This document shows, one piece after another, positions 57,505 through 64,000 of a DNA stretch of 64,000 bases; positions within the stretch are counted from its first letter, which is position 1; each line of letters opens with the position of its first letter. The notes beneath the pieces were generated by a model. The model saw nothing but the letters and a program-made list of their open reading frames with translations, was not told the origin of the DNA and searched no databases. A program made the translations under genes and the position numbers. The stretch lies in the NCBI RefSeq assembly GCF_001014645.1, contig NZ_LASZ01000009.1, positions 62,001-126,000 of the forward strand, read 5' to 3'. The stretch is from Luteimonas sp. FCS-9. Lineage in GTDB: Bacteria > Pseudomonadota > Gammaproteobacteria > Xanthomonadales > Xanthomonadaceae.

Positions 57505-57543
57505 GGCGCCGCGCGAGCGCCCTGTCGTCACACGTTCAGACCA

Positions 57544-57563
57544 TCGCGCGCGAGCGCGTTTCC
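57544..57563. repeat. Single degenerate REP upstream of GH10
   Basis: TCGCGCGCGAGCGCG then TTTCC is a diverged copy of the REP (right orientation) that has lost its partner. It lies in the 76-base gap between the ExuT-like and GH10 genes, just before the GH10 ribosome site. Confidence 0.55.
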
Positions 57564-57580
57564 AGAAGGACATGCAGACC

Positions 57581-58615
57581 ATGAAATACGTCCCCGCCTC
57601 CCTGCTCGCCGCGCTGGCGCTCGCACTGTCGGCCTGCGGCGACCGCCCGCCCGCCGCGCCCGGATCCGCCGCGGACCCGGCACCCGCACCCGCCTCCACC
57701 GCGCTGGCGCACGGCCAGGCCAAATTTCTTGGCGGCGCGCACAGCCCGTCGCAGGCCGAGGGCTTCGTCGACTACTGGAACAAGGTCAGCCCGGAGAACG
57801 GCGGCAAGTGGGGCGAGGTCGAGGCCGAGCGCGACGTGATGGTCTGGGACGAGCTCGACGCCGCCTGGCAGGTGGCGAAGGACCACGGCCTGCCGTTCCA
57901 GATGCACGTGATGGTCTGGGGCAACCAGCAGCCCGAGTGGATCAAGACGCTGCCGCCGGCCGAACAGCGCGCGGAGATCGAACAGTGGTTCGCGGCAGTC
58001 GCCGAACGCTACCCGGGCATCGACTTCGTCGAGGTCGTCAACGAGCCGCTCAACGACCCGCCGTCGAAGGACGACCAGGGCGGCGGCCACTACATCGAGG
58101 CGCTCGGCGGGGACGGCGAGAGCGGATGGGACTGGATCCTGGAATCGTTCCGCCTCGCCCGAACGCACTTCCCCGATTCTAAGCTGATGATCAACGAGTA
58201 CAGCGTCACCAACGATCCCGAGGCGACGCAGCGCTACCTGGAGATCGTGCGGCTGCTGCAGGCAGAAAACCTGGTCGATGCGATCGGCGTACAGGGCCAT
58301 GCGTTCTCGACCACGACCGAGACATCGATGGACGTGCATCGCGCCAACCTCGACGCGCTCGGCGCGACCGGCCTGCCGGTCTACGTCACCGAGCTCGACA
58401 TCGACGGTCCCGACGACGACACCCAGCTGCGCGATTACCAGCGCATCTTCCCGGTGTTCTGGGAGCATCCGGCGGTCCACGGCATCACGATGTGGGGCTT
58501 CCGCCGCGGCCTGTGGCGCGACGAACAGGGCGCCTACCTGGTCCGCGACGACGGCAGCGAGCGGCCGGCGCTGGACTGGCTGCGCCGCTACGTGGGCGGA
58601 GAGGCGCAACCATGA
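57581..58615 (+). CDS. GH10 endo-xylanase lipoprotein
   Basis: The 344-residue protein is a GH10 (beta/alpha)8 enzyme with a lipoprotein signal (LALALSACG). The acid/base Glu is E155 in VEVVNEPLND and the nucleophile E271 in VYVTELDIDG. The canonical GH10 sequence WDELDAAWQVAKDHGLPFQMH precedes them. It cuts the xylan main chain. The ATG at 57581 has AGAAGGA ten bases upstream. An ATG nine bases earlier is too close to it. Confidence 0.9.
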   Translation: MKYVPASLLAALALALSACGDRPPAAPGSAADPAPAPASTALAHGQAKFLGGAHSPSQAEGFVDYWNKVSPENGGKWGEVEAERDVMVWDELDAAWQVAKDHGLPFQMHVMVWGNQQPEWIKTLPPAEQRAEIEQWFAAVAERYPGIDFVEVVNEPLNDPPSKDDQGGGHYIEALGGDGESGWDWILESFRLARTHFPDSKLMINEYSVTNDPEATQRYLEIVRLLQAENLVDAIGVQGHAFSTTTETSMDVHRANLDALGATGLPVYVTELDIDGPDDDTQLRDYQRIFPVFWEHPAVHGITMWGFRRGLWRDEQGAYLVRDDGSERPALDWLRRYVGGEAQP

Positions 58616-61602
58616 GCTGTGCGGGCGCGCGCGCGACCGGCACCCCGCCCGTAGGAGCGCGCTTGCGCGCGAAGACGCTTTCCCGGCGACCCTCGGGCGT
58701 GCGTGAGCGCGCCATGGCTGATCGCGGGGAAAGCGCGATCGCGCGCAAGCGCGCTCCTACGTCGGTGGTGGTGGCGCTGCTGGCGCTGCTGTGCACCCTG
58801 CCGCTGCACGCGCGCGACTGCGCGCAGCCGGCCGCGGTCTGCGAGGCAGCGGTGCCCGGCGCGCTGCCGCTGATCGACGACGGTCGCCCGCTGCCGGTGC
58901 TCGTCGACGAGGCCGACTTCCCCGGTGTGCTGCGCGCCGCCGGCGACCTGCGCGGCGACCTGGCCGCGGTCGCCGGCGCCGCGCCACGCGAGGCCGCGCC
59001 GCGCATGGCGGTCATCGCGGGCACGCTCGGCCGCAGCCCGCGCATCGACCGCATCGTGCGCGAGCGCGGGCTCGACGTGTCCGGCGTCCAGGGCCGCTGG
59101 GAGGCCCACCTGCTGCAGGTCGTCGATACCCCCGAGCCGGGCATCGACCATGCGCTGGTGATCGTCGGCGCCGACCGGCGCGGCACGATCTTCGGCCTCT
59201 ACGAACTCTCGCGCCGCATCGGCGTCTCGCCGTGGACCTGGTGGGCCGACGTGCCGGCGCCGCGCCGGGCCGCGCTGTACGTCGCGCCCGGCCGCTTCGT
59301 TGACGCACCGGCGGTGCGCTACCGCGGCCTCTTCATCAACGACGAGGACCCCGCGCTCGGCGGCTGGATGCAGGCGACCTACGGCGGTCCCAACCACAGG
59401 TTCTACGAGCGCGTGTTCGAACTCGTGCTGCGCCACAAGGGCAACTTCCTGTGGCCGGCGATGTGGGGCCGGGCGTTCTACGACGACGACCCGCAAAACG
59501 CCGCGCTCGCCGACGAGATGGGCGTGGTCATCGGCACCAGCCACCACGAGCCGATGATGCGCGCCCACGTCGAATGGTCGCGCCACGGCGAGGGCCCGTG
59601 GGACTACGCGAAGAACGCGGACCGGCTGCAGGCGTTCTGGCGCACCGGCATCGAACGCCTCGACGGCCGAGAGGCCGTGGTCACGCTGGGCATGCGCGGC
59701 GACGGCGACGAGCCGATGGCCGAGGGCACCGCGATCTCGCTGCTCGAGGGCATCGTCGCCGACCAGCGACGGATCCTCGCCGACGTCACCGGCCGCCCGC
59801 CGCAGGACACGCCGCAGGTCTGGGCGCTGTACAAGGAGGTCCAGGACTACCTCGACGCCGGCATGCGGGTGCCCGACGACGTCACGCTGCTGTTCGCCGA
59901 CGACAACTGGGGCAACCTGCGCCGGCTGCCCGCACCGGGCGAAAGCCGCGCCGGCGGCACTGGCGTCTACTACCACTTCGACTACGTCGGCGGCCCGCGC
60001 AACTACAAGTGGATCAACACCACGCAGATCGAGCGCGTCTGGGAACAGATGCGGCTGGCCTGGGCGCACGGCGTCGACCGGCTGTGGGTGGTCAACGTCG
60101 GCGACATCAAGCCGATGGAACTGCCGATCGGCTTCTTCCTCGACCAGGCCTGGAACCCGGACGCGATGACGCGCGAGGCGCTGGCGGCCTATCCCGCCGC
60201 CTGGGCCGCGCAGCAGTTCGGCGACGCCCATGCCGCGGAGATCGGCGAGATCCTGACCCGCTACACGCAGTACAACGCGCGCCGCAAGCCCGAACTGCTG
60301 TCGGCCGACACCTGGAGCCTGCTGCACCATGGCGAGGCCGAACGCGTGCTGGCCGAATGGGACGCGCTGGTCGAGAAGACCGAACGCGTCGGCGCGGCGC
60401 TGCCGGCCTCGCACCGCGATGCCTGGTACCAGTTGATCGCGTACCCGGTGCTGGCCAGCGCCAACCTCAACCGCTTCCATGTGGCGGTCGCGCGCAACCG
60501 GCTGTACGCCGACCAGGGGCGCGCCTCGACGAACGCCTGGGCCGATGAAGCGACGCGGCTGTTCGCGCGCGACGCCGAACTGGCGCGCGTCTACGAGCAG
60601 GACATCGCCGGCGGCAAGTGGGTGCACATGATGTCGCAGCCGCGCATCGGCTACACCCACTGGCAGATGCCCGACCGCAACGTGCTGCCGGCGCTGGCGC
60701 GCATCGATGTGCGCGAGCACGGCACGATGGGCGTGTCCGTCGAGGGCGATGCACGCGGCTGGCCGGTCCCGGCCGAGACCGCGCGCCTGCCGATGCTCGA
60801 TCCGTACGCCACGCGCGCGCCCGGGCTCGTGGTGTTCAACCGCGGCGCCGCGCCGATCCGCTACACCGCGAACGTGTCCGAGCCCTGGCTGCGGGTGACC
60901 CCGGCCGCCGCCGAGGTCGCCGATGCGCAGCCGCTGCGCGTCGAGATCGACTGGGACGCAGTGCCCGCCGGCACGCACGTCGGCTACGTGGACCTGCTCG
61001 GCAGCGACCGCACCGAAGTCCGCGTGGTCGTGCCGGTGTCGCGGCCCGCATCGAACGGCCCGGTGGCCGGCTTCGTCGAGAGCGGCGGCGCGGTCGCGAT
61101 CGAGGCCGGCGACTACGCACGCGCCGTGGCGCCCGACGGCCTGGCCTGGGAGACGATCCCGCACCTGGGCCGCACCCGCGCCGGCGTGACCACGGCGCCG
61201 ATCACCGCCGCACCCGGCGAGGCCGGCCCCGGCGGCGCCTGGCTCGAATACCCGGTCCACCTGCATGCCGCAGGCGAGGTCGAGGTGCGCGTCGTGCTGT
61301 CGCCGACGCTCGACTATGCGCACCGCGGCGGCCAGCGCTTCGCGGTGTCGTTCGGCGATGCCGCGCCGCAGCTGCAGACGATGCGGCTCGATCCCACGCC
61401 CGGCCATCCGGACTTCCCGGCTTGGCAGCGCGCGGTCGCCGACAGCGTGCACGTCGCCACGTCGCGCCACCGCGTCGAGGCCGGTGCGCAGACACTCAAG
61501 CTCTGGCGCATCGATCCGGGCGTGGTCGTGCAGCGCATCGAGATCGTCCGCGACGGCACGCCGACGACGCTGCTCGGCCCGGCAGCGAGCGTGAAGCGAT
61601 GA
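58612..61602 (+). CDS. GH115 xylan alpha-glucuronidase
   Basis: The 996-residue enzyme of GH115 removes (4-O-methyl-)glucuronic acid from internal xylose units of xylan. Recognisable blocks are VGADRRGTIFGLYELSRRIGVSPWTWWADV, RGLFINDEDPALGGW, GNFLWPAMWGRAF, GTSHHEPMMRAHVEW and GVYYHFDYVGGPRNYKWINT. The ATG at 58612 overlaps the GH10 stop and has GGAGAGG seven bases before it. The next 50 codons cross a REPIN before the hydrophobic signal core (SVVVALLALLCTLPLHA). Starts at ATG 58714 or GTG near 58764 are possible. Confidence 0.9.
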   Translation: MSCAGARATGTPPVGARLRAKTLSRRPSGVRERAMADRGESAIARKRAPTSVVVALLALLCTLPLHARDCAQPAAVCEAAVPGALPLIDDGRPLPVLVDEADFPGVLRAAGDLRGDLAAVAGAAPREAAPRMAVIAGTLGRSPRIDRIVRERGLDVSGVQGRWEAHLLQVVDTPEPGIDHALVIVGADRRGTIFGLYELSRRIGVSPWTWWADVPAPRRAALYVAPGRFVDAPAVRYRGLFINDEDPALGGWMQATYGGPNHRFYERVFELVLRHKGNFLWPAMWGRAFYDDDPQNAALADEMGVVIGTSHHEPMMRAHVEWSRHGEGPWDYAKNADRLQAFWRTGIERLDGREAVVTLGMRGDGDEPMAEGTAISLLEGIVADQRRILADVTGRPPQDTPQVWALYKEVQDYLDAGMRVPDDVTLLFADDNWGNLRRLPAPGESRAGGTGVYYHFDYVGGPRNYKWINTTQIERVWEQMRLAWAHGVDRLWVVNVGDIKPMELPIGFFLDQAWNPDAMTREALAAYPAAWAAQQFGDAHAAEIGEILTRYTQYNARRKPELLSADTWSLLHHGEAERVLAEWDALVEKTERVGAALPASHRDAWYQLIAYPVLASANLNRFHVAVARNRLYADQGRASTNAWADEATRLFARDAELARVYEQDIAGGKWVHMMSQPRIGYTHWQMPDRNVLPALARIDVREHGTMGVSVEGDARGWPVPAETARLPMLDPYATRAPGLVVFNRGAAPIRYTANVSEPWLRVTPAAAEVADAQPLRVEIDWDAVPAGTHVGYVDLLGSDRTEVRVVVPVSRPASNGPVAGFVESGGAVAIEAGDYARAVAPDGLAWETIPHLGRTRAGVTTAPITAAPGEAGPGGAWLEYPVHLHAAGEVEVRVVLSPTLDYAHRGGQRFAVSFGDAAPQLQTMRLDPTPGHPDFPAWQRAVADSVHVATSRHRVEAGAQTLKLWRIDPGVVVQRIEIVRDGTPTTLLGPAASVKR
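58651..58760. repeat. REPIN inside the N-terminal coding region of GH115
   Basis: The left REP (58651-58672) and right REP (58739-58760) are 66 bases apart, wider than the usual 23. The frame stays open through both. The translated REP reads PVGARLRAK and SAIARKRAPTS, adding Arg/Lys ahead of the signal-peptide core. Confidence 0.85.
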
Positions 61603-61610
61603 GTCCCCCC

Positions 61611-61677
61611 GTAGGAGCGCGCTCGCGCGCGAACGGGCTTTCCCGGGAATACCGATCGCGCGCGAGCGCGCTCCTGC
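61611..61677. repeat. REPIN between GH115 and uxaC
   Basis: The left REP (61611-61632) and right REP (61656-61677, last base pairs changed to CTGC) are 23 bases apart. The element fills most of the 97-base gap before the uxaC start at 61700, and may influence mRNA processing between the enzymes. Confidence 0.88.
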
Positions 61678-61699: not shown

Positions 61700-63124
61700 A
61701 TGACCACAGACACCGCGCCCCTCACCCTGCATCCCGACCGCCTGTTCTCCCCCGAGCCGACCCAGCGCGCGATCGCGCGGCGGCTGTACGCGGAGATCGC
61801 CGGCCTGCCGATCGTCAGCCCGCACGGCCACACCGATCCGGCGTGGTTCGCGACCGACGCGCCGTTCGAGAACGCGACCGAGCTGCTGCTGGTGCCCGAC
61901 CACTACGTGTTCCGCATGCTCTACAGCCAGGGCGTGGACCTCGACACGCTCGGCATCCCGCGTGCCGACGGTTCGCGCGCCCGGGTCGATCCGCGCGCGG
62001 CCTGGCGCGTCTTCGCCGAGCGCTTTCATCTGTTCCGCGGTACGCCGTCGTCGCTGTGGCTCAATCACGTGTTCTTCGAGGTGTTCGGTCTGCGCGTGCG
62101 GCTGTCGGCGGCGACTGCCGATCTGTACTACGACACCATCACCGAGGCGCTGGCGACGCCCGCGTTCCGCCCGCGCGCGCTGTTCGAGCGCTTCGGCATC
62201 GAGGTCATCGCGACCACCGAATCGCCGCTCGACCCGCTCGACCACCACGCCGCGATCCGCGCCAGCGGCTGGAGCGGCCGCGTGGTCACCGCCTACCGCC
62301 CGGACGCGGTGATCGATCCCGAGCACGCGCAGTTTCCCGACGCGCTGGCCCGCTTCGGCGAGCTCACCGGCGAGGACGTGCACGACTGGGACGGCTACCT
62401 GCGCGCGCACCGCGCACGTCGCGCATTCTTCGCCGCACACGGTGCGACCTCCATCGACCACGGACACCCGAGTTGCGCGACCGCCGACCTGCCCCCCGGC
62501 GAGGCGCGGCGGCTGTTCGACACCGTCGTGCGCGGCGAGGCCACGCCGGCGCAGGCCGAACTGTTCCGCGCGCAGATGCTGACCGAGATGGCGCGCATGA
62601 GCCTGGACGACGGCCTGGTCATGCAGATCCATCCAGGCTGCTTCCGCAACCACAACCGCGCCCTGTTCGAGCGCCACGGCCGCGACAAGGGCGCGGACAT
62701 CCCGCTGCGCACCGAGTACGTGCGCGCGCTCAAGCCGCTGCTCGACGTCGCCGGCAACGCCCCGGACTTCCGCCTGATCCTGTTCACGCTCGACGAGAGC
62801 ACCTACGCGCGCGAGCTCGCGCCGCTGGCCGGCCACTGGCCCTGCCTGTCGCTCGGCCCGGCCTGGTGGTTCCACGATGCGCCGGAAGGCATGTGGCGCT
62901 TCCGCGAGCAGACCCTCAGCAGCGCGGGCTTCTGCAACACCGTCGGCTTCAACGACGACACCCGCGCGTTCCTGTCGATCCCCGCGCGCCACGACGTCGC
63001 CCGCCGCGTGGATTGCACGTTCCTCGCCAGGCTGGTGGCCGAGCACCGGCTCGACGAGGACGAGGCCGTCGAGGTCGCGACCGATCTCGCCTACCGCCTG
63101 CCCAAGCGGGCGTACCGGCTGTGA
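61700..63124 (+). CDS. uxaC: Glucuronate (uronate) isomerase UxaC
   Basis: The 474-residue protein matches uronate isomerase in length and motifs: SPHGHTDPAWF (metal-binding HxH), VFRMLYSQGVDLDTLG, WLNHVFFEVFG, TESPLDPLDHHA and GWWFHDAPEGMW-type segment (AWWFHDAPEGMWRFR). It converts glucuronate to fructuronate. The ATG at 61700 is used (a TTG two codons earlier is possible). It overlaps the following GH2 gene by GTGA. It links GH115 products and ExuT-like import to central metabolism. Confidence 0.95.
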   Translation: MTTDTAPLTLHPDRLFSPEPTQRAIARRLYAEIAGLPIVSPHGHTDPAWFATDAPFENATELLLVPDHYVFRMLYSQGVDLDTLGIPRADGSRARVDPRAAWRVFAERFHLFRGTPSSLWLNHVFFEVFGLRVRLSAATADLYYDTITEALATPAFRPRALFERFGIEVIATTESPLDPLDHHAAIRASGWSGRVVTAYRPDAVIDPEHAQFPDALARFGELTGEDVHDWDGYLRAHRARRAFFAAHGATSIDHGHPSCATADLPPGEARRLFDTVVRGEATPAQAELFRAQMLTEMARMSLDDGLVMQIHPGCFRNHNRALFERHGRDKGADIPLRTEYVRALKPLLDVAGNAPDFRLILFTLDESTYARELAPLAGHWPCLSLGPAWWFHDAPEGMWRFREQTLSSAGFCNTVGFNDDTRAFLSIPARHDVARRVDCTFLARLVAEHRLDEDEAVEVATDLAYRLPKRAYRL

Positions 63125-64000
63125 CGGTGCGCGTAGCGGTGACAGCTCACGTAGGAGCGCGCTGGCGCGCGATGCTTTTTCTCTGGCGTCGGCGGCAAGG
63201 CGCATCGCGCGCGAGCGCGCTCCTACGTGGGCTGGTGCTCGTGTGCATGCTGGCGTCGGTGGCCGCCCACGCCGCGCCACGCGGACGCGTGCTGCTCGAC
63301 ACCGGTTGGCGCTTCCATCGCGGCGAGGCGCCCGGCCCCGACCCGCAGCTCGACTACGACGTGCGCCCCGAGCCCGGCGACCACAGCGATGGCCAGGACG
63401 CCGACACCCGGCCCACCGAGGCGCGCCGCGTCGACGCCGGCGACCGCCGCGTGCTCAAACCCTGGATCCTGCCCAGCGGCAACGCGCTGATCGCCGATCC
63501 CGCGCGCCGCCACGTCCGTCCCGACGGCGATCCCGGCGGCGACCATCCCTTCGTCCAGGCCGGCTTCGACGACCGCGGCTGGCAGGCCGTGACGCTGCCG
63601 CACGACTGGGCGATCGCCGGGCCCTTCATCGAAGACGGCCCGCACGGCGGCATGGGCCGGCTGCCGAGCTGGGGCGTGGGCTGGTACCGCCGCACGCTGG
63701 AGGTGGACGCCGCCGACCTCGGCCGACGCCACTATCTCGACGTCGACGGCGCGATGGCCTACGCCGCGGTCTGGCTCAACGGCCGCCTCGTCGGCGGCTG
63801 GCCCTACGGCTACAACGGCTGGCGGCTGGACCTGAGCCCGTACCTCGTCGAAGGCCGCAACCAGCTCGCGATCCGGCTCGACAACCCGCCCGATTCCGCG
63901 CGCTGGTATCCCGGCGGCGGGCTCTATCGCAACGTCTGGCTGACCCGCACCGCGCCGGTGCACGTCGGCCACTGGGGCACGGTCGTCACCACGCCCGAGG
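63121..64000 (+). CDS. GH2-family glycoside hydrolase, N-terminal part (runs off window)
   Basis: The frame from a GTG at 63121 (GTGA overlap with uxaC) remains open to the end, about 293 residues. After a signal-like region whose core is RGLVLVCMLASVAAHA, it shows the GH2 sugar-binding domain: LLDTGWRFHRGEA, LPHDWAIAGPF, GVGWYRRTLEV, VWLNGRLVGGWPYGYNGW and LYRNVWL. GH2 enzymes act as beta-galactosidase, beta-glucuronidase or similar. The REPIN at 63151-63226 is translated in the N-terminus. An ATG at 63172, inside the repeat, is an alternative start. The C-terminus is missing. Confidence 0.85.
   Translation, partial: MTVRVAVTAHVGARWRAMLFLWRRRQGASRASALLRGLVLVCMLASVAAHAAPRGRVLLDTGWRFHRGEAPGPDPQLDYDVRPEPGDHSDGQDADTRPTEARRVDAGDRRVLKPWILPSGNALIADPARRHVRPDGDPGGDHPFVQAGFDDRGWQAVTLPHDWAIAGPFIEDGPHGGMGRLPSWGVGWYRRTLEVDAADLGRRHYLDVDGAMAYAAVWLNGRLVGGWPYGYNGWRLDLSPYLVEGRNQLAIRLDNPPDSARWYPGGGLYRNVWLTRTAPVHVGHWGTVVTTPE
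63151..63226. repeat. REPIN inside the N-terminal coding region of GH2
   Basis: The left REP (63151-63172) and right REP (63205-63226) are 32 bases apart, with a GCGCGC(T/A)GG-type core in the left copy. The coding frame runs through without stop and gives an Arg-rich n-region. The REP carries AGGAG at 63153-63157, which could serve as a ribosome site for the ATG at 63172. Confidence 0.85.

Follow-up and report, generated by a model that had tools for sequence, protein, structure and literature searches.

The window analysed here is a 64,000-nt stretch of the 3.95-Mb genome of Luteimonas sp. FCS-9, which corresponds to positions 62001-126000 of contig 9 (C9) and thus starts at C9:62001. At its end, a transporter-type ORF is followed by GH10, GH115, uxaC, and GH2, the last four of which were assigned by Pfam. 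REP arms and pairs of inverted arms (REPINs) lie among these genes, and a further gene of the same cluster is situated outside the window. The features are as follows.

57543..57558, plus strand: possible degenerate REP arm ATCGCGCGCGAGCGCG before GH10, recognised by eye
57584..58615, plus strand: upstream gene of the GH10 xylanase family (Pfam Glyco_hydro_10)
58612..61602, plus strand: GH115 gene, start ATG 58612 (Pfam Glyco_hydro_115); ATGA at 58612-58615 overlaps the GH10 stop
58651..58760, plus strand: REPIN in the GH115 frame, in the n-region of the signal peptide (VGARLRA...ARKRAPT)
61611..61677, plus strand: REPIN between GH115 and uxaC, 8 nt past the GH115 stop; uxaC has a start of its own downstream
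61700..63124, plus strand: uxaC, glucuronate isomerase (Pfam UxaC); TGA stop at 63122-63124
63121..63124, plus strand: GTGA, proposed GH2 start overlapping the uxaC stop, from the sequence and the RTGA codon of relatives
63121..64000, plus strand, continuing past the window end to C9:127913: GH2 gene, GalB-type beta-galactosidase (Pfam Glyco_hydro_2_N; NCBIfam NF041463 GalB, 1448 bits)
63151..63226, plus strand: GTAG-type REPIN of two inverted REP arms in the GH2 frame; codes for VGARWRAMLFLWRRRQGASRASALL plus the first base of the codon that follows
63172..63174, plus strand: terminal ATG of the left REP arm, with AGGAG 14 nt upstream; alternative GH2 start judged less likely
63232..63273, plus strand: hydrophobic core of GH2 with its presumed signal peptidase site, LVLVCMLASVAAHA; lies two codons past the right REP arm
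C9:149358-150980, minus strand, REPIN region to 151067 (L368, L324): GH43 gene, which belongs to this cluster but lies outside the window

The initial annotation described the GTG at 63121 as overlapping the uxaC stop and its frame as running through a REPIN into a signal core and a GH2 domain, and both statements were confirmed. The frame is open from GTG 63121 to the window end, and the NCBIfam GalB model begins at residue 54 of this frame, just past the presumed cleavage site AHA (residues 49-51). The right arm of the REPIN between GH115 and uxaC ends in CTGC, and our search pattern matches only its left arm. If the arm at 57543-57558 is real, a REP or a remnant of one is present at all four junctions up to GH2.

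The REPIN in the GH2 frame and its family

The GH2 REPIN consists of two REP arms in opposite orientation, each beginning with GTAGGAGCGCGC, and extends from GTAG at 63151 to CTAC at 63226; GTAGGAGCGCGCTGGCGCGC at 63151 comprises the GTAG tag and a short palindrome. A repeat search delimited inverted arms of 33 nt (63143-63175 and 63202-63234) that are 94% complementary and 26 nt apart. Folding of the RNA from 63100 to 63260 gave -108.7 kcal/mol (z -6.8), and 0 of 200 shuffled sequences folded as well. With at most one mismatch, GTAGGAGCGCGC had 230 + 230 matches in the genome, compared with 83 + 85 for the reversed control. The GH2 REPIN itself is beyond chance.

The genome contains a single Y1_Tnp match (C1:262362-262544), which belongs to a RAYT gene encoding 166 amino acids (L201 1342-1842, minus strand; ca. 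262.4 kb on contig 1). Its product scored 112.1 bits against the NCBIfam model REP_Tyr_transpos (NF047646; cut-off, 80), and the gene is flanked by REPs on both sides. This RAYT is likely the mobiliser of this REP family. REPs usually lie between genes. The present family agrees with known GTAG REPs and REPINs associated with RAYT in its GTAG-tagged palindromes, inverted pairs, hundreds of copies, position behind stops, and the location of the RAYT gene between REPs, but differs in that the few copies described here lie within reading frames rather than between genes. The GH2 copy is one of these: it is situated within a frame, behind the start deduced from relatives, which makes it an exception to the extragenic position while it is still a member of the family.

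The initial annotation also pointed out that the left REP ends exactly with ATG 63172 and that an AGGAG-like segment precedes this codon by 14 bases. These positions hold (AGGAG, 63153-63157), but neither feature is special to this gene. AGGAG belongs to the GTAGGAG of the arm, and GCGATG directly follows 110 of the 204 REP arms sampled in this genome; since both are common REP letters, ATG 63172 and AGGAG are ordinary. In 74 of the 204 arms, TTG stands 5 nt behind AGGAG; such an arm, GTAGGAGCGCGCTTG, amounts to a ready-made but weak start signal. We likewise set aside the openness of the frame as evidence in itself, because the TAG of the arm blocks only one of the three frames. Other REPs lying between genes of the same strand are also open, yet the gene behind them has its own start past the repeat.

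Start codons of GH2 and GH115 in relatives

We compared 35 rows of GH2 loci, 33 of which have uxaC directly upstream (29 distinct), whereas L010 and L109 have no uxaC on the stretch. Among the 29 distinct rows, uxaC ends in RTGA in 24, GTAA in four, and GTAG in one. In 19 of the 24 relatives, GH2 shares the frame of the RTGA codon (p = 5e-6 against the expected one third), and in 17 no stop interrupts this frame before the mature domain (p = 2e-4), the rows being uncorrected for relatedness. The two other in-frame rows (L011/L033 and L016) are interrupted by a stop, and the five rows out of frame comprise two from Xanthomonas and three from one other genus. Furthermore, the overlap GTG is the only ATG, GTG, or TTG upstream of the core in four of eight REP-free GH2 N-termini (L015, L019, L043, and L048; in L048, a second GTG encodes the first residue of the core). 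The sister genome G162, the closest REP-free relative with a mature GH2 92% identical to that of FCS-9, has the same GTGA, no REP, and a leader of 42 residues to AQA. Since REP-free relatives, including G162, start GH2 at the overlap codon, this codon is most likely the older start, with the REPIN placed behind it. The end of uxaC reads AAGCGGG here and AAGGAGG before the GTG in four of the relatives compared.

At this site of GH2, Luteimonas marina (L029) has a REPIN from a different subfamily, which is in frame and 21 nt longer. Two loci of the genus, L111 and L113, matched L. marina and Luteimonas rhizosphaericola (L035) in their junction sequence. In genome G169, the assembly breaks inside a repeat on both sides of the uxaC-GH2 junction, and a repeat is therefore present at this junction as well.

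For GH115, 20 rows were compared, of which 11 have GH10 upstream. GH115 is in frame with the overlap to GH10 in ten of these 11 loci, through ATGA or GTGA in eight and CTGA in two. Two other species, G169 and G152, also have the REPIN in the GH115 frame, and G176 has a decayed copy. From the start upstream of the REPIN to the hydrophobic core, G169 and G152 lack any further ATG, GTG, or TTG; there, TCG follows GTAGGAGCGCGC, and no start codon lies inside the REPIN. Because no start codon intervenes before the core, any signal peptide of these two enzymes includes the REPIN. Thus, if the enzyme has a signal peptide and starts with ATG, GTG, or TTG, the REPIN of G169 and G152 must be translated. 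In the GH115 tree (21 rows), the REPIN-bearing genes fall into two groups, namely this genome with G169 and G152 with G176, and the REP-free genes of G162 and of G154, G180, and G186 stand beside the former group. A single old insertion followed by losses and two separate insertions both fit this tree.

These comparisons bear on the possibility that the REPIN is an untranslated leader or a regulatory hairpin RNA, the protein starting after it and the open frame being accidental. Such is the view taken of most REPs at ORF 5' ends in Pseudomonas putida, Citrobacter koseri, and Stenotrophomonas maltophilia in the available text of one study (PMC3733652), and the other same-strand REPs in our sample of this genome are indeed followed by a separate called gene start. 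In GH2, by contrast, the starts past the repeat (GTG 63235, GTG 63241, and ATG 63247) would leave only 6 to 10 residues before AHA, none of them basic. In the GH115 gene of G169, no start was found past the REPIN within the 46 codons examined, and G152 has only an ATG close to where the core ends. We regard this explanation as improbable.

The signal peptides were evaluated with a crude, home-made hydropathy rule, by which 114 of 403 genes of this genome were scored as exported; the standard limit is 45 residues, and a looser one places the core within 70 residues. The comparison of both GH2 starts proposed in the initial annotation was made with this rule, and it did not separate them, GH2 passing from GTG 63121 and ATG 63172 alike. 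From GTG 63121, the n-region is long (37 residues, eight basic and none acidic); from ATG 63172, MLFLWRRRQGASRASALLRGLVLVCMLASVAAHA forms a compact signal peptide with an n-region of 20 residues, five of them basic. The GH115 n-region from ATG 58612 has 51 residues (12 basic and three acidic). At the 45-residue limit, GH115 failed from ATG 58612 and, among the starts tried, passed only from ATG 58714, which lies inside the REPIN.

The compact GH2 signal peptide and the behaviour of GH115 in the crude test are what would be expected if translation began inside the repeat (ATG 63172 in GH2; TTG 58663 or ATG 58714 in GH115; the ATG of the second REPIN in GH43, described below), so that the REPIN would supply both the start and the n-region and the overlap codon would be unused. 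For GH2, the idea of the initial annotation that the repeat provides a new start and n-region is weakened by the 14-nt spacing, the position of ATG 63172 in a strong predicted hairpin, and the commonness of this REP variant. Moreover, start codons within the REPIN are not conserved, as the TCG of G169 and G152 indicates, and the overlap start is used in REP-free relatives. A start within the repeat is hence unlikely overall, and conceivable chiefly in GH43 and GH115.

Distribution of REPs over gene junctions

To place the GH2 copy among the others, we surveyed ca. 625 kb of this genome in stretches chosen around REPs and thus non-random, namely the window, stretches around exact arms on contigs 1 to 4, further REP places, and C9 from the window end to 154000. 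Genes were called with our own codon-usage caller. Of 108 REP clusters, 51 lie at convergent, 51 at same-strand, and five at divergent junctions, and one is inside a gene near its 3' end, so that 107 were classed outside called gene bodies; the sampled junctions numbered 80, 346, and 73, respectively. In a first set of 41 same-strand clusters, the median distances from the stop upstream and from the gene body downstream were 46 and 88 nt, respectively, and 32 of the clusters were nearer the stop. An even spread would put ca. 11 of these 41 on RTGA starts (72 of 271 junctions), whereas two were seen. That REPs lie near the 3' end of the preceding ORF is also described in the available text of PMC3733652.

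Same-strand junctions from five genomes (this one, G169, G175, G190, and G152) were pooled into a table of 579, which leaves out L353-L368 of this genome, G162, and one stretch each of G169 and G190. REPs were present at 5 of 133 overlapping in-frame starts and at 99 of 446 other junctions (p = 7e-8). With the 70-residue limit applied to all overlapping starts, 5 of 62 exported-like genes and 0 of 71 others carried a REP (p = 0.02); with the 45-residue limit, the numbers were 3 of 49 and 2 of 84 (p = 0.36), and the insertion itself can push a core past 45 residues. The five REP-bearing overlapping starts represent three gene families. Independent evidence for an excess of exported genes is thin, since GH115 orthologs account for three of the five and, in L226 of G169, the REP is followed by a complete signal peptide that has an ATG of its own. 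That the exceptions at overlapping starts are exported proteins is therefore suggestive only and dependent on the rule chosen; GH43, which is outside the pooled table, points the same way.

The initial annotation suggested that REP insertion may be favoured at the starts of genes for exported enzymes. The three clear cases in this genome (GH115, GH2, and GH43) are indeed exported hydrolases, and the 70-residue count over five genomes tends in this direction. An active preference would nevertheless be hard to reconcile with the depletion at overlapping starts, the rarity of REPs at divergent junctions, and the two copies found on RTGA starts, and we consider it very improbable. The survey revealed no preference for gene starts, in this genome or in the five pooled. 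The pattern is consistent with REPs that insert behind stops and are lost again wherever an N-terminus would be spoiled, signal-peptide n-regions excepted, but not with an attraction to genes for exported proteins.

Among the 27 clusters of G175, the one open case (L253) was discarded because an ATG lies past the repeats. The 69 clusters of G190 include five open cases. One of them, the lipoprotein-like L297 (G190:C42:86000-91000), possibly takes its basic n-region and an ATG (MARSYG) from a right REP arm.

GH43 and the REPINs of the cluster

The initial annotation doubted that the same arrangement in two genes of one locus is a coincidence. The arrangement stood for GH115 and GH2, in both of which the REPIN is in frame and relatives start before it, but the set proved larger, GH43 being a third gene. 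We located 35 GH43 places, fetched 30, and read 26; exact REP strings occurred within 250 nt of GH43 in three of the 26 loci, those of this genome, G169, and G190 (the last with another subfamily). In-frame REPINs precede the signal core in this genome and G169, and G162 has a REPIN, decayed and recognised by eye, with an ATG before its right arm. GH43 of FCS-9 contains two tandem in-frame REPINs and several possible starts. Among the 204 sampled arms, GTAGGAGCGCGC is followed by ATG solely in the second left arm, and this in-frame ATG stands 5 nt behind AGGAG. This arm, the TTG at the same spot in the 74 arms mentioned above, and the decayed G162 copy agree with a start inside the repeat.

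In the frames used, the right arm encodes SRASALL(x)G in GH2 and GH43 and ARKRAPT(x) in GH115. The GH43 core of this genome includes the ALL of the right arm, and ALLLGVLL spans the arm boundary; the mean hydropathy of the core is 3.07 with the arm and 1.8 without it. The arm adds little or nothing to the core in GH43 of G169 and G162, in GH2, and in GH115. REPINs might serve as portable parts of signal peptides, their right arms providing a basic, acid-poor n-region, the arm in GH43 of this genome also building the core, and some copies carrying AGGAG with a start codon 5 nt later. We regard this broader reading as doubtful; if it is true, mobile repeats help to build or rebuild the export signals of a polysaccharide-degrading cluster.

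Signal-peptide n-regions tolerate changes of length and sequence as long as they remain basic. The most likely interpretation of the sequence comparisons is that REPINs in the first codons of these secreted sugar-degrading enzymes are translated as part of the export signal. For GH2, the REPIN probably settled behind the uxaC stop, became coding through the overlapping GH2 start, and survives in a tolerant n-region. A GTAG-type REPIN from the family native to this genome, driven by the RAYT, would have inserted just behind the stop; because GH2 starts on the 4-nt overlap GTGA with this stop, such an insertion falls behind the GH2 start codon. Ribosomes ending uxaC may restart at GTG 63121 by translational coupling and read the REPIN within the 37-residue leader, where it would contribute ca. 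25 Arg/Ala-rich, acid-free residues of the n-region before the core LVLVCMLASVAAHA, and the Sec machinery would accept this leader. The persistence of REPINs in GH2, GH115 (with its ATGA overlap to GH10), and GH43 would then follow from the tolerance of n-regions. REPs are rare at overlapping starts in general, and signal-peptide n-regions would be the places where they are tolerated. These observations suggest a rule that REPs settle behind a stop and, in an overlapping start, remain where an n-region can take the repeat.

REPs within ORFs are documented in several species, with a share at the NH2 terminus, and the available text of PMC3733652 describes REP-decorated proteins in which REP dimers encode 20 to 30 residues, some of them NH2-terminal. 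GH2 and GH115 likewise have the repeat in frame, free of stops, within a conserved gene. They differ from the cases in that text in that most 5'-end REPs of P. putida, C. koseri, and S. maltophilia were judged non-coding there, mostly as start-site errors, whereas here relatives appear to put the start before the repeat, and in that, in several species, the repeats probably lie within the signal peptides of exported hydrolases that belong to one cluster. The comparison across species suggests that some 5'-end REPs are truly coding. The same text cites NH2-terminal RPE-1 proteins of Rickettsia as expressed.

Rickettsia palindromic elements (RPEs) are similar, by description only, in being palindromic, inserted in frame, and kept in proteins, but occur in a different host; we know of no signal-peptide role for them. 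Among the matches listed in our literature searches, those for REPs of Luteimonas included (titles and starts of abstracts, with subscription journals mostly outside the scope), nothing on REPs in signal peptides was found. The present comparison adds genes of one polysaccharide-degrading cluster whose relatives put the start upstream of the repeat, which would thereby fall within the signal peptide. They are relevant to the annotation of start sites in REP-rich genomes and offer a test of whether mobile palindromes become parts of proteins.

A REPIN also stands at the other end of one gene. In L147 (15710-17122, minus strand; contig 1), the 3' coding end of the called gene passes through a REPIN, giving a C-terminal tail of VGARSRAH...SRASALLQGGDGHAR.
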